Below are positions 31,413 to 61,416 of a stretch of 64,000 bases of DNA, in pieces. The notes below the pieces were generated by a model, which worked only from the letters and a program-made list of their open reading frames with translations, made no database searches and had not been told where the DNA came from. Numbering within the stretch: position 1 is the first letter of the stretch; each line of letters starts with the position of its first letter. A program made the translations under genes and the position numbers. Source of the stretch: Puia sp. (lineage in GTDB: Bacteria > Bacteroidota > Bacteroidia > Chitinophagales > Chitinophagaceae); the NCBI GenBank assembly GCA_031292515.1, contig JARLGZ010000269.1, positions 310,001 through 374,000 of the forward strand. Reading direction: 5' to 3'.

Positions 31413-33011
31413 ATGTTTTGCATGCAGGAAATCATCGGTTTTTTTGGTAAATTATTTGACAGCGCCGACTGGCCGCCCCGCTGGCATTGCGGTAAATGGA
31501 CCGGTCTGGCCGGCTGGTTATACATCATCAGCGACCTCTTGATCTGGGCAGCCTATTTTGCGATCCCTCTCCTGTTGCTCCGCTTCATCATTCAACGGCT
31601 GAGACAGCGGCGATCCGCAAAGTTGATTTTTTTATTCGCAGCTTTTATATTGGCCTGCGGCTCGACCCATTTCCTGGACGCAATGGCCTTCTGGATACCG
31701 ATGTATCGGCTTTCCGCGCTCCTGCGTGCCGTCACCGCCGTCGTCAGCTGGCTCACCGTTTTCAGCCTGATCAGGGTGTTGCCCTATGCCTCCTCCCTAA
31801 AAGATCCGCGACTGCTCGAGGCCGAGATCGAAATGCGGAAAAAAGCCGAAACCGAGTTGCAACAAAAAAATGAACAGGTGGAGGAAAGCAGGCAGACCTT
31901 CAAAAATGCATTCGAGTATTCATCCATCGGCATTGCGCTGGTAAGTCCCGAAGGCCGGTGGCTCGATGTGAACCATGCGGTTTGCAATATGTTCGGCTAT
32001 ACGAAGGAAGAGCTGTCACACCTTAGCTTCCAGGATATCACCCATCCCGATGACCTGGCCATGGACCTCGATCAGGTGGCCCGTCTTCTCCGCGGCGAAT
32101 TGGAGACCTACCGGATGGAGAAAAGATATTATGCGAAAGACGGCGCGATCGTGTGGGCCCTGTTGTCGGTTTCGCTGGTATGGAAAGATGAAAAGCCCTC
32201 TTTTTTTATTTCCCAGATCGTGGATATTACAGCCAACAGGCGGTTGCAGGAAGAAGTGGAAAAGAAAAACATCGAACTCCGCCAAGCCAATGAAGACCTG
32301 CAGATTCATATTGCGAGGATCAGCGAATTCAACAGGATCGTCGGGCATAACCTGCGTGGGCCCGCCTCCTCCCTCATAAACCTGGCGGATTACCTGGACA
32401 AAAGCGATAATGAAACAGACAGGAATTTCCTGCTGTCACGGGTGAAAGGCACTGCCGGCATGATTATCCATACCCTCAACGACCTCAAGGAATTCCTGGA
32501 GATACAATTGAACCAGGAACAGCATTTCGGCCCGGTGGGGTTCAAAGAGACCCTCAACAACGCCATGCGGATGTTGGATGAACAGATCCTTGAGGCCGAT
32601 CCGCTTATCAATGTCTCGTTCGATATCGGCGAAGTCGGGATGCCCAGGGCTTACCTCGAAAGCATATTCTACAACCTGCTCAGCAACGCGATAAAATACC
32701 GGGATCGCGCAAGACCCCTGGTGATCGACATCAAATCTGCCTGGCAGGCCGGATCCGCCGACGAACCCGCTGGTTACATCCTATTGACGATAAAAGACAA
32801 TGGCATTGGAATTGACATGAATAAATTCGGCAAAGAAGTATTTAAATACAAAACGATGTTTCACAAGGGTTACGAGAGCAGCGGCGTGGGGCTTTTTTTG
32901 ACACGGACCCAGATAGAAGCCTGCAACGGCAGGATCGAAATGGAGAGCGAGGCGGGACGGGGAACTACCCTGCGCATTTTTTTTAAAAAGGATAATACAG
33001 GGACGGTATGA
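31413..33011 (+). CDS. Ethylene-receptor-like sensor histidine kinase (EBD-PAS-HK)
   Basis: A 532-aa membrane sensor kinase. Residues 20-125 are three membrane helices that match the ethylene-binding domain of plant ETR1. Asp41, Tyr48, Ile51, Pro52 (ISDLLIWAAYFAIP), Ile79, Cys82 and His86 (FILACGSTHFLDAMAFW) correspond to ETR1 Asp25, Tyr32, Ile35, Pro36, Ile62, Cys65 and His69. In ETR1, Cys65 and His69 bind the Cu(I) that holds ethylene. A coiled coil (~130-165), one PAS domain (~165-285), a phosphoacceptor helix (His312 in VGHNLRGPASSLINL) and an ATPase domain (NLLSNAIKYRD, DNGIGID, GVGLFL) follow. A receiver gene lies 34 bp downstream. An alternative ATG is at 31422. The domain is clear; ethylene as ligand is inference. 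Confidence 0.92.
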   Translation: MFCMQEIIGFFGKLFDSADWPPRWHCGKWTGLAGWLYIISDLLIWAAYFAIPLLLLRFIIQRLRQRRSAKLIFLFAAFILACGSTHFLDAMAFWIPMYRLSALLRAVTAVVSWLTVFSLIRVLPYASSLKDPRLLEAEIEMRKKAETELQQKNEQVEESRQTFKNAFEYSSIGIALVSPEGRWLDVNHAVCNMFGYTKEELSHLSFQDITHPDDLAMDLDQVARLLRGELETYRMEKRYYAKDGAIVWALLSVSLVWKDEKPSFFISQIVDITANRRLQEEVEKKNIELRQANEDLQIHIARISEFNRIVGHNLRGPASSLINLADYLDKSDNETDRNFLLSRVKGTAGMIIHTLNDLKEFLEIQLNQEQHFGPVGFKETLNNAMRMLDEQILEADPLINVSFDIGEVGMPRAYLESIFYNLLSNAIKYRDRARPLVIDIKSAWQAGSADEPAGYILLTIKDNGIGIDMNKFGKEVFKYKTMFHKGYESSGVGLFLTRTQIEACNGRIEMESEAGRGTTLRIFFKKDNTGTV

Positions 33012-33045
33012 GGGATAACACAGGAAGAAAAAAAGATAAAAAAAT

Positions 33046-33459
33046 ATGAACCAACAACTTCAGACTGCGGGAATCATTGACGACGATGAGATCTATCAAC
33101 TGGTAATGAAGAGGACGATCGAACAATCAGGACTGGTAAAGTCCGTTCTCCAGTTTTATGACGGGGAAGAAGCCATCTATTTTTTTAAGGAAAAACAGAC
33201 GTCCACGGGGATGCTGCCCGAAATGATCCTCCTGGACCTCAATATGCCGTATATGAATGGATGGCAGTTCCTGGATGAATTTCTGAAGATCGAATTTGAA
33301 AAAGATTATAAACTGAGCATCTTTATCGTCACCTCTTCCTCGACCACCGAGGAGATAGACCGGGCAAAGGACTATAGCATTGTCTCGGGGTATCACATAA
33401 AACCCATCTCGAAAGACACTTTTGCGGAAATGGTGAAGACGGTCATGAGGGCCGCTTAA
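33046..33459 (+). CDS. Single-domain response regulator, partner of the ethylene-receptor-like kinase
   Basis: A 137-aa CheY-like receiver with no output domain. It has an acidic pocket IDDDE (11-15), phospho-acceptor Asp64 in ILLDLNMPYMNGW, Thr/Ser in IVTSSS and Lys in HIKPIS. It starts 34 bp after the kinase stop and is clearly co-transcribed with it. With no DNA-binding domain it must act by protein contact or pass phosphate on to another protein. The next gene (fumC) is convergent, and the stop codons are only ~10 bp apart. Confidence 0.94.
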   Translation: MNQQLQTAGIIDDDEIYQLVMKRTIEQSGLVKSVLQFYDGEEAIYFFKEKQTSTGMLPEMILLDLNMPYMNGWQFLDEFLKIEFEKDYKLSIFIVTSSSTTEEIDRAKDYSIVSGYHIKPISKDTFAEMVKTVMRAA

Positions 33460-51710: not shown

Positions 51711-53114
51711 TCATATCGGAACGGAAATGGATATGCAGGTCCCTTTCCCGGGTTCGCTTTTTAATTCGTATTGCCCCTCCATCACGAATACCCGTTCCTT
51801 AATACCCAGCAGGCCAAAACTTTTTCGTTTTCCGGTGGTGTCCGTATCGATGCCCTTCCCGTCGTCTTTTATTTCGAGGAAGAGCCGGTCATTCGTTATC
51901 CGGAGGCTGCTGTGTATTTCATGCGCCTGGGCGTGGCGAACCGCGTTGGTCAGGGCTTCCTGGTAAATACGGAACAAACCGGTGGCGATCGCGGCGGGAG
52001 CATTGATTTCCTGCTGATCGGCGACAAAATTTATTTTTATACCGAACCTGCTTTCCGCTTCCTGGTTTTGCCATTTTAAGGCGGCCACGAGACCGAGATC
52101 GTCGAGTATGCTCGGTCGCAGATGGGCCGAGATCCTTCTCACCGAATTCACGGTCTCATCGATCAGGACGAGGATGTCGGTGAATTTTCCCTGGATAGTT
52201 TTGTCGTCCGTTTTTATCTGTTTGTTCAGGGCATATACATCCATCTTTAGGCCGGTGAGCTGCTGTCCCAATTCATCATGGATATCGCGTGCGATCTGTA
52301 TCCTTTCCTCTTCCCGGATATTTTGGAGATGGCAGGATAACGCATGCAGTTCCCGGTTGACCTGCTTTATTTCGTTTTCCGCTTTCAGCTTCTGCGTCAG
52401 ATCGTTGATCAGTTCCAATCGCGCAGGCTTGCCGTCATAGGCTATCCTGGCCGACAGGATCTCTGCATCGATAAAACTGCCGTCTTTTTTCATATGATTC
52501 AAGATTCCGGATTCCCTGGCAATCGCTGTTCCTTCCGGCCGTATCCTCGATAAGGGCATGCCTGCGAATTCATCGCGGGAATAGCCATAATGTTTTACGG
52601 CCGCATCGTTTACCGCCAGGAACAGGTTCGTTTGGTCGTCTATTACCCATGCGGGCAGTGGGTTCTCCTCGAACAGCAAACGGTATTTCTCCTCGCTTTT
52701 GACAAGGGCCGCCTCCGCATCGAGCTTCTCCCGTTTTATCTTTCTTTTTTCGAGGGCCCTGGTGATAGCGGAAGGAAGACGGGTGAGATTGTTTTTCAGG
52801 ACATAGTCATCCGCGCCCATATGGATGATATCGACGGCGAATTCTTCGGAGACGGTTCCGGTGACCAGGATGAAGACCGGGTCTGCACCCTCTTCCTGCA
52901 GGATCTTCAGCGCGTCGAACGAATTAAATTGCGGTAAGGAATTGTCGGCTAAAATGGCGTCGAAGGAGTCATTCTGAATCGCCGCCAAAAATTCCGGCTT
53001 ATCCGTTGCGATCGTTGCATCGAATACCAACCCCGACCGGTGGAGGAACTTCCGGATCAGTTCCAGGTCGGAAGGGTCGTCTTCAAGCAGTAACAGTTTT
53101 AAAGCTGTATTCAT
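51711..53114 (-). CDS. Receiver-PAS-histidine kinase (hybrid, HisKA_3 type)
   Basis: A 467-aa soluble protein. The N-terminal receiver domain (1-125) has phospho-acceptor Asp57 in ILADNSLPQFNS. A PAS domain (~140-245, KYRLLFEENPLPAWVIDD) is followed by a HisKA_3 helix with His279 in RIQIARDIHDELGQQLTGL and a GHKL ATPase (YQEALTNAVRHAQA, DDGKGID, SFGLLGIKER). With no membrane segment, it is likely switched by phosphorylation of its own receiver by the upstream kinase, and then signals to a NarL-type regulator such as 57778-58407 (inference). It lies 37 bp after the receiver gene at 53152 in the same operon. Confidence 0.94.
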   Translation of the reverse strand: MNTALKLLLLEDDPSDLELIRKFLHRSGLVFDATIATDKPEFLAAIQNDSFDAILADNSLPQFNSFDALKILQEEGADPVFILVTGTVSEEFAVDIIHMGADDYVLKNNLTRLPSAITRALEKRKIKREKLDAEAALVKSEEKYRLLFEENPLPAWVIDDQTNLFLAVNDAAVKHYGYSRDEFAGMPLSRIRPEGTAIARESGILNHMKKDGSFIDAEILSARIAYDGKPARLELINDLTQKLKAENEIKQVNRELHALSCHLQNIREEERIQIARDIHDELGQQLTGLKMDVYALNKQIKTDDKTIQGKFTDILVLIDETVNSVRRISAHLRPSILDDLGLVAALKWQNQEAESRFGIKINFVADQQEINAPAAIATGLFRIYQEALTNAVRHAQAHEIHSSLRITNDRLFLEIKDDGKGIDTDTTGKRKSFGLLGIKERVFVMEGQYELKSEPGKGTCISISVPI

Positions 53115-53151
53115 AACCAGGGTTTAATGGATGAACTTCCCTTTATTTCCC

Positions 53152-53604
53152 TTACTGACCGGTAAGTGGCGGTTTTTGGTTCTGGATCAACCAGTAGAGC
53201 CCCAATTCGCTGACCGCCTTGGCGAAGGATTCGAAATTGACCGGCTTCACAATATAGCTGTTTACGCCAAGCTTATAGCTTTCGACAACATCCCTTTCCT
53301 CCTTCGAAGAGGTGAGGACGACCACCGGGATCATTTTGGTTCGCTCGTCTCCTTTTATCCTCCTCAGGATTTCCAGACCGTCCACTTTGGGAAGTTTCAG
53401 ATCCAGCAGGATCAGCTTCGGATCGAAATGGGCGGATGTTTTACCCGGTGGATCCTTTGGGAAGATCAGATCGAGGGCCTCTGCGCCATCATCGAGATGC
53501 ATGAGCTTATTGGCAAGATTGTGTTTCTTAAGGCTTCGGATCGTCAGCTCGGCCTCATACGGGTTATCCTCTATCAGCAATATGTCTATTTCCTGTTGTT
53601 CCAT
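53152..53604 (-). CDS. Rcp1-like single-domain response regulator
   Basis: A 150-aa receiver of the type that partners phytochrome-like kinases (Rcp1 family). It has [20 protein letters not shown] at the N-terminus, phospho-acceptor Asp68 in [27 protein letters not shown] and [16 protein letters not shown]. No output domain is present. It starts 22 bp after the stop of the ethylene-receptor-like kinase, and the receiver-PAS-kinase gene follows. It is a probable phosphate shuttle between these two kinases. Confidence 0.95.
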
Positions 53605-53626
53605 GATGGGTAAGTTTGTTGAATGG

Positions 53627-55945
53627 TTAGTTTTTTATGGGGAGGCTGAAGGAGAACACGGATCCTTTGCCCGGTTCCGACTCGGCCCAAACCTTGCCGC
53701 CATGTTTTACGATGATCCTTTGAACCAAAGCAAGGCCCACACCGGTGCCTTCATATTCCGTTATTTTATGAAGACGCTGGAATACGCCGAATAGTTTGCC
53801 CGCATATTTCATATCGAATCCTACGCCATTGTCCTTTACCGAATAAACAATGCTCCTCCCGTTTTGGTAAGAGCCGATATGGATGGACGGCTTCTCCTGC
53901 TTGCCGGAATACTTCAGCGCATTCGAGATGAGATTCCCCCAGACCTGCAGGATCAGGTTCCTGTCACAACTGGCAGGCAATAGCGGGTCGGCGAGGATTT
54001 CCGCCTCTCTGCCTCTGTACAAGGCCAGCTGTTCGGTGATAGCCGATTTTACCAGCTCGTTCATATCCGCGCGGGTCGTGACAATTTCTTTTCTGCCCAA
54101 CTGCGACAGGTTGAGCAGGGCATCGATCAACTGCCCCATCCTCCTGGCATTGGCCGTAATGACACCGAGCGTACGTCTGCCTTCTTCATCCAGCTTATCG
54201 GAATAATCGGTTACCAGCATATCGGCAAAGCCATCGATGATGCGAAGGGGTGCGCGGAGATCATGCGATACCGAATAAGTGAAGGCCTCCAGCTCCTTAT
54301 TGATGATGGCCAGTTCCTCGGTTCGTTCGATGACCTTCTGCTCGAGGCCGACGTTCAATTCGCTGATGCGGCGTTGCGCATTTTTCAGCTCGGTGACATC
54401 TATCGAGACGCTCATGGCAGCATATACCTCATTATTCTCGTTTTTGAGCGGAACATACCTGGTGACCAGGTCATATCCGGTCCTGTTGCTTTCAACGGTG
54501 AAGGTTTCTTCGTGGAAGACGCGTATGAAATGGGGAAGCGCCTCCTCGTAGCGATCGGCCGGTAACACATCGGCCGCTTTTTGCCCCAGGAGTTTCTCTT
54601 TTTTGTAGCCTGTTTTTTCAATCATATCCCCTTCCACCAGGAGGTAGCGGTATTCGGGATCCATCAGGCATATCACAGACCCGGGAATACTGGACGCTAT
54701 GGTCCGGTAGAGATTTTCGTTTTGCCGGATCTTTAATTCCGCCTTTTTCTGTTCGGTGATATTGCGGGCTATTTTCGAAGCTCCGACGATCTTTCCGTCC
54801 GGATCCTTTATCGGGGCTACGTTGAGGGATATCTGCACCGCGCTGCCATCCTTCCTTAGTCGCTCCGTTTCATAGTGCTCCAGGTATTCCCCCCTGGTAG
54901 TCTTCCTGATGATCAGGTCTTCTTCATGCCATCGGTCGGGCGCGATCAGCATGGATATCTCCTTGCCCAATACTTCACCGGGTGGATAACCGAATAGTTT
55001 TTCGGCCCCCCGGTTCCAACTCGTGATTGTCCTTTCCAGGTCGATGCTGATAATGGCTTCGTCGGAGGAATTGATAATGGATGCCAGCCAGGCCTGCTGC
55101 TCCTCGGCTTTTTTGCGCTCCGTAATGTCGGCCCGGATGGCGACATACTGGCGGGGTTTTCCCTCCGGGCCCAGGAAGGGTACGATGGTCGTGTCAACCC
55201 AATAGGTCGACCCGTCCTTGGCCCTGTTCTTCAATTCCCCTTTCCAGATCTTTCCCCGGGCAATCGTCACCCAGAGATTCCGGATGAACTCCTTTGAATG
55301 ATACCCGGAGTTGATGATAAGATGGTCCTGGCCGATCAACTCTTCCCGGCTGTATTTTGAGATCCGGCAGAAATTGTCGTTCACATGCCTGATGATTCCT
55401 TTTTGATCGGTAATGGCGACAATGGAAGATTGATCCAGTGCATATTTATAGTCCGAAATTTCTGCCGTTCTTTCGTTGATCCTGCTATCGAGTTCGGCAT
55501 TCAGCCGCCTGAACTTCTCTTCCGCCTTTTGGCGTTGCCCTATCTCCGTCTCCAGGTCTTTAAGAGGCCTCAAAGATACGGCCAGCGGAAGATACTTGAC
55601 GATATAAAATACCGTCACCCAACTGATTACCCCGGTTATCAGCCGCATGAGGGCGTTTAAGCGATAGACGGGTATCCAGAAGGCGATGGCGTCTAAAAAA
55701 TGCGTAGCCCCGCAGGCTAATATAAAAGCGGCAAACAGGAAGTATAGCCGGATAAACCGGGCATCCTGTTTTCTTGAAATATATTTGATAATGACGACCG
55801 GGATGGCGAAATAGGCCGACCAGATCAGGAGATCGCTGAGGATATACAGCCATCCGTGGAATTCAGTCCATTTACCGCAATGCCATCGGGGCGGCCAGTC
55901 TGAACTGTCCAATAGTCGCGTAAAGAAATCGGCGAAGTCCTTCAT
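53627..55945 (-). CDS. Ethylene-receptor-like multi-PAS sensor histidine kinase
   Basis: A 772-aa kinase. The N-terminal membrane domain (15-125) holds all seven ETR1 ethylene-site positions: Asp38, Tyr45, Ile48, Pro49 ([14 protein letters not shown]), Ile75, Cys78 and His82 ([17 protein letters not shown]). The 26-residue gap from Pro49 to Ile75 equals that in ETR1. It shares the rare [10 protein letters not shown] entry with the kinase at 31413. Three PAS domains follow (~165-278, 285-400, 405-520), then a coiled coil, HisKA with His561 in [14 protein letters not shown], and an ATPase domain ([30 protein letters not shown]). The ligand is inferred. Operon order: receiver, this kinase, Rcp1-like receiver, receiver-PAS-kinase. 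Confidence 0.94.
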
Positions 55946-55964
55946 ATTTAACGTATGGCGATTC

Positions 55965-56342
55965 TCAGGTTATTATCTGCGCCACCAGTTCGGGGATCCG
56001 GGAAAAATCCTTTGTTTTATCCAGGAAGAACGCCGCTTCCAGTTCGGCGCATTTGCTCCTGTAAAATTCATCGGATGAATTGGTTAGCATGATGACATGG
56101 ATATCGGGCTGCTGGCTTTTCAAATCCTGAAGCAGTCTGATCCCCGACCCGTCAGGCAGGTTGATATCGAGGAATACGATGTCAGGGTTCGTTTCTTCGC
56201 ATGCCTCGAGCCCTGTTTTCACCGATCTGGCCTGCCCTAGCAGCTCTATATCGGATATCGTCGAGAGGAGATCGAGTAGCCTGGCCCCGACCGTTTCCGA
56301 ATCTTCAATGAGCAGGACCTTATGAGTCAAATTCTTAACCAT
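55965..56342 (-). CDS. Single-domain response regulator (mini-receiver, paralogue A)
   Basis: A 125-aa CheY-like protein with acidic pocket IEDSE, phospho-acceptor Asp59 in IVFLDINLPDGSGI, and the unusual tail IMLTNSSDEFYRSKCAELEAAFFLDKTKDF, shared with the receivers at 58576 and 59117. It is first in the four-gene kinase operon, ending 19 bp before the ethylene-receptor-like kinase. I chose ATG 56342: a perfect TAACTTTG -7 box (56346-56353, minus strand) ends 3 bases before it, so translation probably starts at the very 5' end of the mRNA. The longer open frame upstream is not expected to be translated. Confidence 0.92.
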   Translation of the reverse strand: MVKNLTHKVLLIEDSETVGARLLDLLSTISDIELLGQARSVKTGLEACEETNPDIVFLDINLPDGSGIRLLQDLKSQQPDIHVIMLTNSSDEFYRSKCAELEAAFFLDKTKDFSRIPELVAQIIT

Positions 56343-56345
56343 GTC

Positions 56346-56353
56346 CAAAGTTA
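56346..56353 (-). promoter_or_regulatory. -7 promoter box of the ethylene-receptor-like kinase operon
   Basis: On the minus strand, TAACTTTG (perfect TAnnTTTG) then GAC then ATG. The spacing places the transcription start at or next to the start codon (leaderless mRNA, inference). No matching -33 box is seen. Confidence 0.55.
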
Positions 56354-56435
56354 GCGGGTCCCGAATTCCGAATTTGTAGACATCCGTTTCGATCGGTTGT
56401 AGTAGAAAATAGGGCACGGGGAAAACCCCGCGCCT

Positions 56436-56696
56436 TTAGACCTCAAATCTCAGCTTTCGCGTCCCACTCATAAGATTCTCTGTTAAACGATCCTGCGAGT
56501 GAGCGGCCTCCTGGTTTTCACAGAAATCATTATCTTGTTTTTGCTCTTTTAGGAAATTATTAACCGGCTGGGATAGGTCCCTTTGATCCGGGCTCTCGTG
56601 CAACCCGGTGATCGGATCAAAAGGAGTATGAGCCATGGCCGAGAGAGTCATCATCACCTGGTCGGTGGAGTACGGGGCGGGGCCATGCTGGTTCAT
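56436..56696 (-). CDS. Hypothetical small protein
   Basis: An 86-aa frame, MNQHGPAPYSTDQVMMTLSAM to GTRKLRFEV, just upstream of the four-gene kinase operon. It is hydrophilic, rich in Gln, Asp and Asn, with no signal peptide, membrane helix or motif I recognise. The codon pattern is compatible with a gene, but nothing else supports it. The start could also be the TTG at 56702. Confidence 0.4.
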   Translation of the reverse strand: MNQHGPAPYSTDQVMMTLSAMAHTPFDPITGLHESPDQRDLSQPVNNFLKEQKQDNDFCENQEAAHSQDRLTENLMSGTRKLRFEV

Positions 56697-56936
56697 AGAC
56701 AAATATTTTAGCGATCAGGAACTGAAAATTCACTGTTTTGCTACTGCAGGATCCTTAATCGAAAAGAAGATTTGTGTTTAGTACGAAGACTAATAACGAG
56801 CCGGGTGAAAAGAGAGACCTTAGAAAGAATAGTATCGATTATATTGTCAATAAATATACCATTTAAAAATCGGTATATCAAATTAAATAAAAAAGCTAAC
56901 CATCTTTTGTAGATGGCTAGCTTGTACGGGCGGGTC

Positions 56937-57345
56937 ATATTGGCAATTTCACAGGGTCGGAAAAACGGGCCCGGACGGATTGGTTTTCATAGGACGGATC
57001 TTGTTGGTTCAGGACATTGGACAAACTGGTTTTCAAAGGTTAGGATCAGGCTTCAGGACATTGGACGAATAGGTTTCAGGGATCAGGACCTGAGTTCGGT
57101 TTTGGACGCGGCCAACAGAATCAGGATTCAGGGTTTTTTAGGATGACGGATTTTAATACTGCTTTCGGTTTCGGGATACAGATCTTCAGGGTACGGTTTT
57201 TCGGGTTTCGGTTTTTCGGATTGGATTCAGGGTTTTTAGGATGACGGATTTTAATATTGCTTTGGTTTCAGGATACGGATCATTAGGTTTCGGGACATGG
57301 ATCTTTCGGTTTCGGGTTTCGGACTTTTTCGCCTGGGATATTGAA
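56937..57345. repeat. Degenerate repeat field (GGTTTCGG / GGATTCAGG units) with a 55-bp direct repeat
   Basis: This ~400-bp stretch is made of drifting short units such as GGTTTCGGG, GGATTCAGG, GGATCAGG and GGACATTGGAC. It includes a longer direct repeat, 57124-57179 and 57223-57276 (about 55 bp, ~100-bp period, starting GGATTCAGGG and ending GGATAC). It lies between the divergent halves of the signalling island. No gene is visible in 56703-57777; the rest (57346-57733) is AT-rich leader sequence. Confidence 0.75.
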
Positions 57346-57733
57346 TGCTGCCTTAACAGTACAAAGATGCGACGGAGAAGGCCCCCGAAAAATAGTAGAT
57401 CGTATAGACCTTGGATAGAGACAAGTCTCATTGGGCTGTAGAATATACTCTACGTAAGAAGCCGCCTCCGGTATTTCGAGACAGTCCGTAGAGGGGGGCC
57501 TAAGGGTTTACCCGGAGTCGGTATTTATGAAAACTACCTGAAAACTCTTAGGATAATCGGTAAATATGGCTTAAATTCATCATATTATAGGCGTCCGAAC
57601 CTTCACGATGCCCTATATTCGTATAAATCAACAGGTTAAGATTCTGGTTTGTTTCGCTGTTTGCAATACCCGATAATATGCGAAAGAATCAACACTCGAC
57701 TGACCCACCGTATAGCAATGCTATTTTTTGTTT

Positions 57734-57750
57734 GTCACCGTTCCGGTGAC
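57734..57750 (+). promoter_or_regulatory. Hairpin in the leader of the NarL-type regulator gene
   Basis: GTCACCG-TTC-CGGTGAC, a perfect 7-bp stem 27 bases before the ATG at 57778, preceded by TAGC-AAT-GCTA plus T6. It may be a weak terminator/attenuator or an operator dyad. Confidence 0.45.
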
Positions 57751-57777
57751 TGAATCTTAACATTAACTCCATAATAC

Positions 57778-58407
57778 ATGCGCCGATTTCTGATAGCCGA
57801 CGATCATTCCGTAGTACGGAAGGGCTTAAAACAAATCTTGTTCGAAGCATTTCCATCCGCAGCCATTGAAGAAGTGACCAATGCGGAAGACCTTTTTAAA
57901 AGAGTGACCCTGGAAGAATGGGATGCCGTGATCTCGGATATCTCCATGCCCGGCCGGAGCGGCTTGGAAATATTGCAGCAGGTCAGGCTGGATCATCCCA
58001 AACTGCCTTTCCTCATCCTCAGCGTCCACTCCGAAGACCAATACGCCATCAGGGTGTTAAAAGCAGGCGCGTCCGGGTACCTGAACAAGGAATCCGCGCC
58101 GGAGGAACTGGTCAAGGCGATCAACCAGCTCTTGCTCGGCAAGAAATATATCACCCCGTCCATTGCCGAAAAACTGGCGACTACCCTTGACCGGGATGCG
58201 GCAAAAATGCCGCACGAGTACCTTTCGGACCGGGAGTTTGAAGTGTTTAAGCAACTGGCTGCCGGGAAGGCGGTGTCCGAAATTGCGGAGAGGATCTTTC
58301 TGAGTGTTACCACCATCAGCACCTACCGGTCCCGCATCATGACCAAAATGAATTTGAAGACCAACGCCGACCTGACCCTGTACGCCATCGAACATAAGCT
58401 CCTGTAA
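57778..58407 (+). CDS. NarL/LuxR-type response regulator
   Basis: A 209-aa DNA-binding regulator. The receiver domain has IADDH, phospho-acceptor Asp54 in AVISDISMPGRSGLE, and the Lys-type LNKESAPEEL. The LuxR helix-turn-helix (~145-209) has LSDREFEVFKQLAAGKAVSEIAERIFLSVTTISTYRSRIMTKM. It is the only DNA-binding output in the 51-61 kb island, and so the likely end point for the HisKA_3 kinases at 51711 and 59533 (inference). A hairpin sits in its leader. Confidence 0.95.
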   Translation: MRRFLIADDHSVVRKGLKQILFEAFPSAAIEEVTNAEDLFKRVTLEEWDAVISDISMPGRSGLEILQQVRLDHPKLPFLILSVHSEDQYAIRVLKAGASGYLNKESAPEELVKAINQLLLGKKYITPSIAEKLATTLDRDAAKMPHEYLSDREFEVFKQLAAGKAVSEIAERIFLSVTTISTYRSRIMTKMNLKTNADLTLYAIEHKLL

Positions 58408-58561
58408 CGAACGGGCGTAAATGCCGATGACTGAAAACGGCCCGTTTAAAACGTCCATTTGCAGAACCCGTACTACCTGTAGAACCCATACTACACCCCC
58501 TCTTGCATAACTTCTACAACGGGATTATTCTGCTTCTACAGACCGGGCGGCTGTTTCCATG

Positions 58562-58569
58562 TATTTTTG
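58562..58569 (+). promoter_or_regulatory. Candidate -7 promoter box, near-leaderless receiver gene
   Basis: TATTTTTG is a perfect TAnnTTTG box ending 6 bases before the ATG at 58576. Confidence 0.5.
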
Positions 58570-58575
58570 TTTGCA

Positions 58576-58953
58576 ATGGATAGGACTTTTCCCGGAAAAT
58601 CGATACTCATCATAGATGATTCTTCCCTGATCAGGAAGCGCCTTCGGATTATGCTGAAATCAATAGATGGCATCCGCTCCATCAATGCGGCCGGCGACTA
58701 TTCCTCGGCTATGCATCTCCTCAGCGATCCGTCGCCGGATATCGTCCTGCTCGACATCAACCTCCCCGGCGGAAGCGGCATCGACATTTTGAGGGACATC
58801 AGGAGCCGTTATCCCCGGATCATCGTGATCATGCTCACCAACCAGTCCGACGACGATTACCGGGCCGCTTGTAAAAACCTGGGGGCTCGCTATTTCATCG
58901 ACAAGTCGAAAGAATTCGAACAGGTCCCCGCCATTATCGCCTCTCTTTCTTAA
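58576..58953 (+). CDS. Single-domain response regulator (mini-receiver, paralogue B)
   Basis: A 125-aa receiver with IIDDSS pocket, phospho-acceptor Asp60 in IVLLDINLPGGSGI and the tail IMLTNQSDDDYRAACKNLGARYFIDKSKEFEQVP. That tail is clearly related to those of paralogues A (55965-56342) and C (59117-59488). It has no output domain. I chose ATG 58576 over the in-frame TTG at 58567 because the promoter-like box overlaps the latter. It likely has its own promoter within the plus-strand half of the island. Confidence 0.93.
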   Translation: MDRTFPGKSILIIDDSSLIRKRLRIMLKSIDGIRSINAAGDYSSAMHLLSDPSPDIVLLDINLPGGSGIDILRDIRSRYPRIIVIMLTNQSDDDYRAACKNLGARYFIDKSKEFEQVPAIIASLS

Positions 58954-59116
58954 ACCGCCTCTCTCTTAAGCGGTCTTCTCTTTTTAACAGGCGGGGGACC
59001 CGGTGTAGTAGCATGTCTACAAGGCTTTGACCATATTCAGGACAGGAATTACAGCAGATCCTCTATTTTTTACAGGTCTTCTTTTGCATTACTTTGCTGT
59101 ATCAAAAACCAGGATC

Positions 59117-59488
59117 ATGAAAAAAGAAAAAAGAACCGTTCTCATCGTCGACGATTCACTCCTCATCGTGGAAAGAATGATACCCATATTGGAAGAGATC
59201 GAGAATATCTCGTTTGTCGTACAGGCCGGCAGCTTTCGGGAAGGCCTGGAAGTGCTGGACACGCTAAATCCGGATATGGTCTTGCTGGATATTAATTTGC
59301 CCGACAGGAGCGGTATCGAACTGTTGCGTATCATCCGGGAAAAACATACGGAAATCATCGTACTCATGATATCCAATCAGGCGGATGATTATTACAGGGA
59401 AATATGCAGGTCGTTGGGAGCCCGGCACTTCCTCGACAAGTCGAAGGACATCGATTTTATCCCCGAAGTATTATCCGCCGCCTGCTGA
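59117..59488 (+). CDS. Single-domain response regulator (mini-receiver, paralogue C)
   Basis: A 123-aa receiver with IVDDS pocket, phospho-acceptor Asp58 in MVLLDINLPDRSGIE and the shared tail LMISNQADDYYREICRSLGARHFLDKSKDI. It starts at ATG 59117 (MKKEKRTVLIVDDS). The PAS-kinase at 59533 follows 44 bp downstream and is likely co-transcribed, making them a kinase-receiver pair. No output domain is present. Confidence 0.93.
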   Translation: MKKEKRTVLIVDDSLLIVERMIPILEEIENISFVVQAGSFREGLEVLDTLNPDMVLLDINLPDRSGIELLRIIREKHTEIIVLMISNQADDYYREICRSLGARHFLDKSKDIDFIPEVLSAAC

Positions 59489-59532
59489 TAAAAAGCTCTG
59501 AAAACAACGGTCTGAAAACAACTCCAAATCTT

Positions 59533-61416
59533 ATGACTACAAATGGTATCGATATCTGCGAATGGGTAGGCGCCTTAAAGGACCACAAGCCCTATTACAT
59601 GGCTATCACGGATTTTCACGGGAATCTGTCTTTCACCAACTCACATTTTTATAACAATTTCCAGTCGGCTAAGGCGTCCCGGACAGGATTTTTCGATCTT
59701 GTCCATGAGAATGACCGGCAGCATCTGGATGAAACCCTTACGAATTGCTCGATGTCCGAGGAAGCTGTTACCACCGAATTGAGGCTCAAAAACGGCAGCT
59801 TCCGGTGGATAAAATGGAAGATATCCCGTGTAAGAAAACCGGAGATCATGTCCGAAAAATTTTTGTGTCTTGGATATGAGATGACTCCGGAGGAACAGCA
59901 AAAAAAGAATATGGAAATTTTTGAACGGAATTACCAGGGCCGCAATGCCCTGTTCCATTCCTTCATGGATCATACGCCGTATTTTACCTGGATAGTCGAC
60001 GAAGACGAGAACCTCGTCTTTGCCAATAGCGTTTTGCTGAAATATTTCCAGGTCGACGAGACGGCTTTTGGCCAAAAACTCCAGGAGATCATTCCCGGGC
60101 CGATTGCCGGTATGATCCGGGAAAAACATATCCACGCCCTCAAATGCGGCCGGCAGGATCAAAGCATCGTAAAATCGATCATGGCCGATGGGAAAGAACA
60201 TGTATACCAGGTCATCGTCTTCCCCGTTCGGGGCGCCGGACCGGGCACACTCGTCGGAGGCGAGGCATTGGACATCACCGATTCATACCAGGCCGGACAA
60301 CAGGAGAAGAGAGTGAGCGAACGCCTGCTGTATATCAATAAAGCCACCTCCGAAGCCATATGGGACTGGAACATCCGGAACGGCCAGATCTACTTCAACC
60401 AGGCTTTACATGCGCTCGTCGGCACCGATCTTGGACAGGTATTCGATCTTGACTGGTATTACCGCTGCGTTCACCCGGATGACAAGGAAAAGACCGAACA
60501 GGTGCTCAGGACGGTATTGGACAGGGGAGAGCAGTCCTGGGAGGCGGAATATCGCTTCCTTTGCCCTGACGGCCAATACAAGATGATGCACAGCCGGGGT
60601 TTTGTCATCTACGAAAATGGGGAAGCCGTCCGGATGATAGGATCCTTGCAGGATGTGTCGGAGATCAGAAAACTGGAAACACAGTTGGTGAAACAAAAGT
60701 TGACACAGCAGAAAGGGATCGCCGAAGCGATCATAAAGGCCCAGGAAGACGAACGTACCCGGATCGGTCATGAATTGCACGACAATATAAACCAGATCCT
60801 GGCTTCCGGCCAGTTGTACCTGAATGCGTTGAATAGCGATATCGATGATTTCCAGGAGATAAAAGATAAAACCATGGAGATCCTGAACCTCGCCATCGAA
60901 GAGATCCGGACCCTCTCGAGGACGATGGTCACCCCTGATCTGAAAAAAGGAGGCCTGGTGGCCAGTATCGATGGGCTCGCCGATGATCTTCGTTTTGGCG
61001 ATCTTTTCGAAGTGAGCTTCACGCATAGCCGTACCTGCGACATAGAGGAAATGAGCCAGGGCAAAAAGATCGCCCTCTTCCGCATTGCCCAGGAACAGGT
61101 CCGGAATATCGTCAAATACAGCGAGGCGCAAAAAGTCGGAATAGCCCTGGATATCGACAACGACAGGGTGCGACTGGAGATCAGCGACGACGGCAAAGGT
61201 TTCGACGCCCGGCATACCCGTCAGGGTCTGGGCTTGTCGAATATCCATGAGCGAACCCTCCTTTACAACGGTAAAATGGTACTGGCCACCGCGCCCGGGA
61301 AAGGCTGTTCCATCATCGTCAATATCCCGCTGGAAGGCCGGGAAATATTCCTGTCGAATATCCGCGTATCCCGCCCCGAAAATCCCGCCGAAAGAGAACC
61401 CGGGGAGCAACGATGA
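59533..61416 (+). CDS. Soluble multi-PAS histidine kinase (HisKA_3)
   Basis: A 627-aa cytoplasmic sensor kinase without membrane helices. PAS-like domains lie at ~20-120, ~135-255 and ~265-380 (the last with DWNIRNGQIYFNQALHALVGTDL and VHPDDKEKTEQVL, a PAS_3 fold). The phosphoacceptor helix has His416 in EDERTRIGHELHDNINQILASGQLYL, and the GHKL ATPase has AQEQVRNIVKYSEA, DDGKGFDA and GLGLSNIHERT. HisKA_3 kinases normally signal to NarL-type regulators; the one at 57778 is the nearest. ATG 59533 is chosen because the upstream frame overlaps the receiver gene. Confidence 0.94.
   Translation: MTTNGIDICEWVGALKDHKPYYMAITDFHGNLSFTNSHFYNNFQSAKASRTGFFDLVHENDRQHLDETLTNCSMSEEAVTTELRLKNGSFRWIKWKISRVRKPEIMSEKFLCLGYEMTPEEQQKKNMEIFERNYQGRNALFHSFMDHTPYFTWIVDEDENLVFANSVLLKYFQVDETAFGQKLQEIIPGPIAGMIREKHIHALKCGRQDQSIVKSIMADGKEHVYQVIVFPVRGAGPGTLVGGEALDITDSYQAGQQEKRVSERLLYINKATSEAIWDWNIRNGQIYFNQALHALVGTDLGQVFDLDWYYRCVHPDDKEKTEQVLRTVLDRGEQSWEAEYRFLCPDGQYKMMHSRGFVIYENGEAVRMIGSLQDVSEIRKLETQLVKQKLTQQKGIAEAIIKAQEDERTRIGHELHDNINQILASGQLYLNALNSDIDDFQEIKDKTMEILNLAIEEIRTLSRTMVTPDLKKGGLVASIDGLADDLRFGDLFEVSFTHSRTCDIEEMSQGKKIALFRIAQEQVRNIVKYSEAQKVGIALDIDNDRVRLEISDDGKGFDARHTRQGLGLSNIHERTLLYNGKMVLATAPGKGCSIIVNIPLEGREIFLSNIRVSRPENPAEREPGEQR

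Follow-up and report, generated by a model that had tools for sequence, protein, structure and literature searches.

Does a bacterium of the Bacteroidota carry a receptor for the plant hormone ethylene? The question is raised by a two-gene locus of a Puia species, found in a contig stretch of 64,000 nucleotides (JARLGZ010000269.1, positions 310,001 to 374,000), the whole of which is referred to here as the window. The initial annotation had described the locus as an ethylene-receptor-like histidine kinase with a linked receiver, and this description has stood. Because the ETR1_N domain is matched in Pfam, the residues of the ethylene site are conserved, the layout is that of the receptor AzoEtr1 and the two genes are inherited together, the pair is read as an ethylene-receptor-type kinase and its receiver. 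As judged from its sequence, the membership of the kinase in the ethylene-receptor kind is well supported. The kinase adds a member to a known family; the more surprising part lies in offshoots of that family which lack a full site.

The kinase gene and its seven-residue site

Both reading frames called at the outset, 31413-33011 (532 aa) and 33046-33459 (137 aa), are present on the forward strand (Table 1). Since the relatives open with M-x-x-x-x-x-FF, the kinase probably starts at the ATG at 31422 rather than at 31413, and residue numbers then drop by three. When the profile comparison suggested in the initial annotation was carried out, PF25487 (ETR1_N) matched at 99.5 bits against a curated cut-off of 27 (E = 1.3e-28), and no other membrane family exceeded its own Pfam cut-off in the kinase. 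The PAS domain, kinase core and receiver gene said to follow the membrane domain were likewise recovered, with Pfam matches to PAS and HATPase_c and then to Response_reg in the second frame. The Pfam HisKA model did not reach E <= 1 in the window kinase, whose core nevertheless gives alignments to solved kinases (8f71, E = 3.1e-16). Among the 25 NCBIfam families listed for the kinase, only a generic PAS box passes its cut-off and none describes the protein as a whole.

Table 1. Positions of the features discussed, in the window unless a locus is named.
Feature	Position	Strand	Basis or remark
Sensor histidine kinase, ethylene-receptor type (EBD-PAS-HK)	31422..33011	+	529 aa; alternative start ATG 31413 gives 532 aa
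N-terminal segment with ten-residue motif (Trp17-Trp26, Cys23; 31422 numbering)	31461..31493	+	Precedes membrane helix 1; alignments, short helix 19-22 in model
ETR1_N domain (PF25487)	31512..31796	+	Pfam; three predicted membrane helices
Asp41 (ETR1 Asp25)	31533..31535	+	ETR1 alignment
Cys82 (ETR1 Cys65, copper ligand in ETR1)	31656..31658	+	ETR1 alignment
His86 (ETR1 His69, copper ligand in ETR1)	31668..31670	+	ETR1 alignment
PAS domain (PF13426)	31929..32234	+	Pfam
His312, phospho-acceptor of the H-box (GHNLRGP)	32346..32348	+	Alignment with solved kinases
HATPase_c domain	32655..32990	+	Pfam
Receiver-only response regulator, presumed partner	33046..33459	+	137 aa; Pfam Response_reg alone; Asp64 likely acceptor, read from sequence
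Receiver-PAS-HisKA_3-HATPase_c protein, cluster of second kinase	51711..53114	-	
Receiver-only regulator directly downstream of second kinase	53152..53604	-	
Second ethylene-receptor-type kinase	53627..55945	-	772 aa; site complete in all seven positions; EBD, three or more PAS stretches, HisKA and HATPase_c
Receiver-only frame directly upstream of second kinase	55965..56417	-	
Example of a protein without the copper His	L087:6001-7044		
feoB of the same locus	L087:3743-5857		

The seven residues named in the initial annotation, Asp41, Tyr48, Ile51, Pro52, Ile79, Cys82 and His86 (Asp38, Tyr45, Ile48, Pro49, Ile76, Cys79 and His83 when counted from 31422), do share columns in a multiple alignment with Asp25, Tyr32, Ile35, Pro36, Ile62, Cys65 and His69 of ETR1, and the single extra loop residue is found between Pro and Ile, as had been stated. 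Against the first 133 residues of what we take to be the ETR1 sequence, BLASTP gave 35% identity over 105 columns (E = 3e-12, for a comparison of two sequences). When residues 31-130 were shuffled 200,000 times, the seven-residue pattern never arose. In a set of 106 distinct bacterial domains there is no change at Tyr45, Pro49, Ile76 or Cys79; Asp38 is kept in 103 and His83 and Ile48 in 95 each, with all seven unchanged in 81. Their mean conservation is 0.966 versus 0.623 for the other 91 columns, a value matched once when seven columns were drawn at random 100,000 times, part of it by construction, the rows having been picked by homology and anchored on P and C/S/A-G. Left out of the 106 were L016 (no anchor), L106 (in-frame stop), seven duplicates and the weak loci L004-L008. 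In two Bacteroidota proteins whose frames are long, some 1567 aa (L105 and L107), the ETR1_N domain has Asn for Asp25 and no outer Cys.

In the motif that precedes the first membrane helix, Cys stands at the position of Cys23 in 92 of the 106 bacterial domains and Trp26 is kept in 104. The same Cys is present in seven more domains, encoded on plasmids of cyanobacteria and proteobacteria, all of which have P-H-G-x-C or a similar form. The N-terminal Cys4/Cys6 bridge of ETR1 is distinct from this bacterial motif. AlphaFold2, given 38 rows (mean pLDDT 83.3, pTM 0.57), places helices at 2-9, 19-22, 29-59, 66-88, 95-125 and 129-164, which is predicted to represent three membrane helices (29-59, 66-88 and 95-125) followed by a coiled-coil linker. 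Cys79 and His83 fall one turn apart in predicted helix 66-88, the second membrane helix; in ETR1, the equivalent Cys65 and His69 are copper ligands and Asp25 is in occasional contact (available part of PMC6586836). If the N-terminus is outside, as is usual for the family, both the site and Cys23 would face outward. A Foldseek search of the PDB returned 58 matches, none of them at E <= 0.001. Structure thus lends the assignment no support of its own, and the outcome is uninformative because the searches brought up no solved ethylene-binding domain.

The adjacent receiver and known ethylene receptors

The receiver gene begins 34 bases behind the kinase, and the two are co-inherited. In three genomes of the same genus the pair recurs in the order kinase then receiver, with kinase/receiver identities to the window pair of 72/77% (L022), 62/69% (L023) and 58/66% (L055), while the nearest other receiver found in the own genome is only 29% identical to that of the window. 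A mobile-element origin was considered for the closest relative and is unsupported, as fumC trails the pair in L022 (79% identity) just as it does in the window; no fumC was found in about 4.5 kb at the L023 and L055 pairs. Kinase-receiver pairing is common and not universal: a receiver-only frame on the same strand within 400 bases was found at 31 of the 92 EBD loci whose downstream sequence extends for 500 bases or more, a count that includes near-identical rows and misses true cases such as AzoEtr1's own regulator, owing to the start codon chosen.

AzoEtr1 of Azospirillum brasilense is a 525-aa EBD-PAS-HK protein with a 135-aa receiver-only regulator directly downstream and with saturable ethylene binding (available part of PMC11819568). 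Both frames were confirmed in the locus that we examined, and the AzoEtr1/AzoRR-Etr1 system resembles the window pair in its EBD-PAS-HK protein of about 525 aa, its seven residues and its adjacent receiver-only regulator. The two domains are 33.8% identical over 139 columns. AzoEtr1 differs in having the P-H-G-x-C-x-x-W form of the N-terminal motif, a place in a separate tree group and a kinase of a different sequence type. The AzoEtr1 genes also overlap, whereas those of the window are spaced.

Arabidopsis ETR1 has a GAF domain, a kinase and a fused receiver, and signals mainly through CTR1. It shares with the window protein the three-helix domain and the seven residues (PMC6586836, in the part available), and its signalling has been called kinase-independent (in the accessible portion of PMC11819568). 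In Synechocystis, SynEtr1 with Slr1213 and Slr1214 is similar to the window system in that a histidine kinase with an ethylene-binding domain signals to a nearby regulator, but SynEtr1 carries in addition a light domain of phytochrome-like type and works with regulators that are transcription factors (available part of PMC6508509). For the Bacteroidota themselves, a limited literature search, which included the available part of PMC10452086 and had key reviews outside its scope, found neither a paper on ethylene receptors nor binding data.

Distribution and offshoots without a full site

ETR1_N was present in 9 of the 58 related genomes searched and in 21 of 395 across the phylum, the own genome included in both counts, and it is patchy within the genus, where 5 of 32 other genomes have it. 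A scan of named contigs yielded 139 encoding relatives, the best 80 of which are nearly all Bacteroidota, with Chitinophagaceae, Mucilaginibacter and Dyadobacter among them; its patterns, the N-terminal motif and the start of helix 1, favour rows with the motif and are neutral on the state of the Cys/His site. In a quick tree of 114 rows, 89 Bacteroidota rows fall on one branch (SH-aLRT 100), made up of rows with a motif of the W-x-x-R-W-x-C-G type and rows lacking the copper His. Outside it stand AzoEtr1, ETR1, the rows from cyanobacteria and other Bacteroidota, whose motif is of the P-H-G-x-C type. As the program warned of few columns and long branches, the main split alone was used, and by it the window domain lies outside the AzoEtr1 branch (L020) and within that of the 89 rows. 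At several loci, L024, L025, L026 and L041 among them, the ethylene-receptor-type kinase exceeds the window protein in length, at 900-1432 aa.

Two offshoots have departed from the full site. One is L016, which belongs to another genome of the genus (G007) and encodes a kinase 53% and a receiver 65% identical to the window pair (L016:1294-2880, receiver from 2877). The kinase domains are intact, helix 1 is replaced by unalignable sequence and CG-x-T-H has become C-V-A-T-W, so that the pair is kept with its site lost or eroded. The other offshoot consists of 12 loci (L076, L077, L079, L081, L083, L084, L086, L087, L089, L090, L096 and L101) in which the copper His is Tyr (10 loci) or Phe (2), and of which 10 have also lost the outer Cys. 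Their proteins, of 347-353 aa, have the order ETR1_N-PAS-phosphoacceptor and end after the phospho-acceptor helix; a pattern search found ATPase motifs in none of the 12, and Pfam HATPase_c was absent in both of the proteins scanned, those of L087 and L081.

All 12 have feoB upstream on the same strand, 104-488 bases away, compared with none of 91 other complete loci, 62 of which have at least 2.7 kb upstream and could have shown it. Frames that we take, from their sequence, to be cysteine desulfurase-like stand near 9 of the 12, and presumably scaffold-like ones near 7. Since the tree counts a single change of the copper His, the feoB-linked clade is one event with conserved neighbours and not twelve, and a correlation between the N-terminal Cys and the copper His, with one loss on the tree, carries no statistical weight. 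That these proteins are decoys for a normal receptor of the same genome is not supported, as each of the nine genomes searched holds a single ETR1_N protein. The domains of L090 (labelled Azovibrio) and L096 (labelled Bacteroides) are nearly identical, and these labels of metagenome-assembled genomes are probably wrong.

In view of the two offshoots, not every ETR1_N protein should be read as an ethylene receptor. The window protein, however, carries all the recognition features of ethylene receptors and shares no loss with either offshoot. It is possible, if rather unlikely, that the Bacteroidota branch represents a distinct ethylene-receptor domain which recruits the outer Cys (next to a His in most rows) into the copper site and which has been re-used at least once. 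By this account the feoB-linked protein of the Chitinophagales would have lost the copper His, mostly the outer Cys, and the kinase ATPase, and would now serve iron uptake, so that ETR1_N would be a general metal-site membrane module with ethylene sensing as one of its uses.

Proposed signalling, its alternatives and further kinases of the genome

The likely function of the window system is the sensing of ethylene, or of ethylene on copper, and the passing of the signal to the neighbouring receiver. Three-helix domains, paired as a dimer, would hold Cu(I) through Cys79 and His83 close to the outer side of the inner membrane, with Asp38 assisting. Ethylene would bind the copper, and the bundle would pass the change through the coiled coil and the PAS domain to the kinase core. 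Binding would probably lower autophosphorylation of His312, a sign that comes by analogy only from the proposals for plants, Synechocystis and Azospirillum; for AzoEtr1 it has been proposed that ethylene lowers kinase output as in the other two (available part of PMC11819568). Phosphate would then pass from the kinase to Asp64 of the receiver, which, being without an output domain, may act by protein contact or as a relay. Gas-hormone sensing is thus an inference, because the branch stands apart from the characterised receptors and two offshoots keep the domain or its kinase without a full site.

The domain could instead hold Cu(I) while what it responds to physiologically is copper as such or some other small molecule (a different alkene, CO or NO), ethylene being incidental. 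The conserved set does look like a metal site, Cys23 in the W-H-C-G motif lies outside the membrane where plants have no such residue, and the domain has an offshoot linked to iron transport. Yet the equivalents of Ile35, Pro36 and Ile62, which are needed for ethylene binding and are not metal ligands, are kept, and no copper gene was found among the ten neighbouring window proteins scanned, which leaves this alternative unlikely. Two Cu-ATPase genes (> 570 bits) are present in the genome, but copper export is ordinary here since the same search was positive in 14 of 14 control genomes. ACC deaminase had no match in the genome, an absence that says little either way.

That the membrane domain is mainly an anchor or dimeriser, with PAS as the real sensor and the site kept by recent common descent, is quite improbable: even among divergent rows the seven residues are far more strongly conserved than the remaining columns, and none of the genome's three paralogues has lost any of them, although G007 does retain its PAS-kinase-receiver pair despite an eroded site. 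That the resemblance is due to chance, or that the domain comes from an unrelated membrane family, is hardly credible; the lack of a significant Foldseek match among solved structures could be cited for this view, but it is refuted by the Pfam match, and the shuffles tell against it as well.

Should ethylene be bound, a large phylum of soil and freshwater would join the organisms able to hear the plant hormone, and would offer a clean two-gene system with three paralogues to compare in one genome. The losses that have arisen naturally, within the genus and in the feoB-linked clade, provide ready-made negative controls for the function of the site. The outer Cys, nearly universal in the bacterial domains, is an added part of the copper chemistry that lends itself to testing.

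The three paralogues are the only ETR1_N proteins of the genome over the cut-off, and all have the N-terminal Cys. The third, of 531 aa, lies at the edge of another contig, and a receiver frame stands beside each kinase (window 33046-33459, window 53152-53604 and contig C231 2049-2444). The second kinase is surrounded by a dense signalling cluster (window 51711-61416), which includes receivers, a LuxR-type regulator and the receiver-PAS-HisKA_3 protein, among others. Parts of the cluster recur in L029, a locus of Foetidibacter luteolus.
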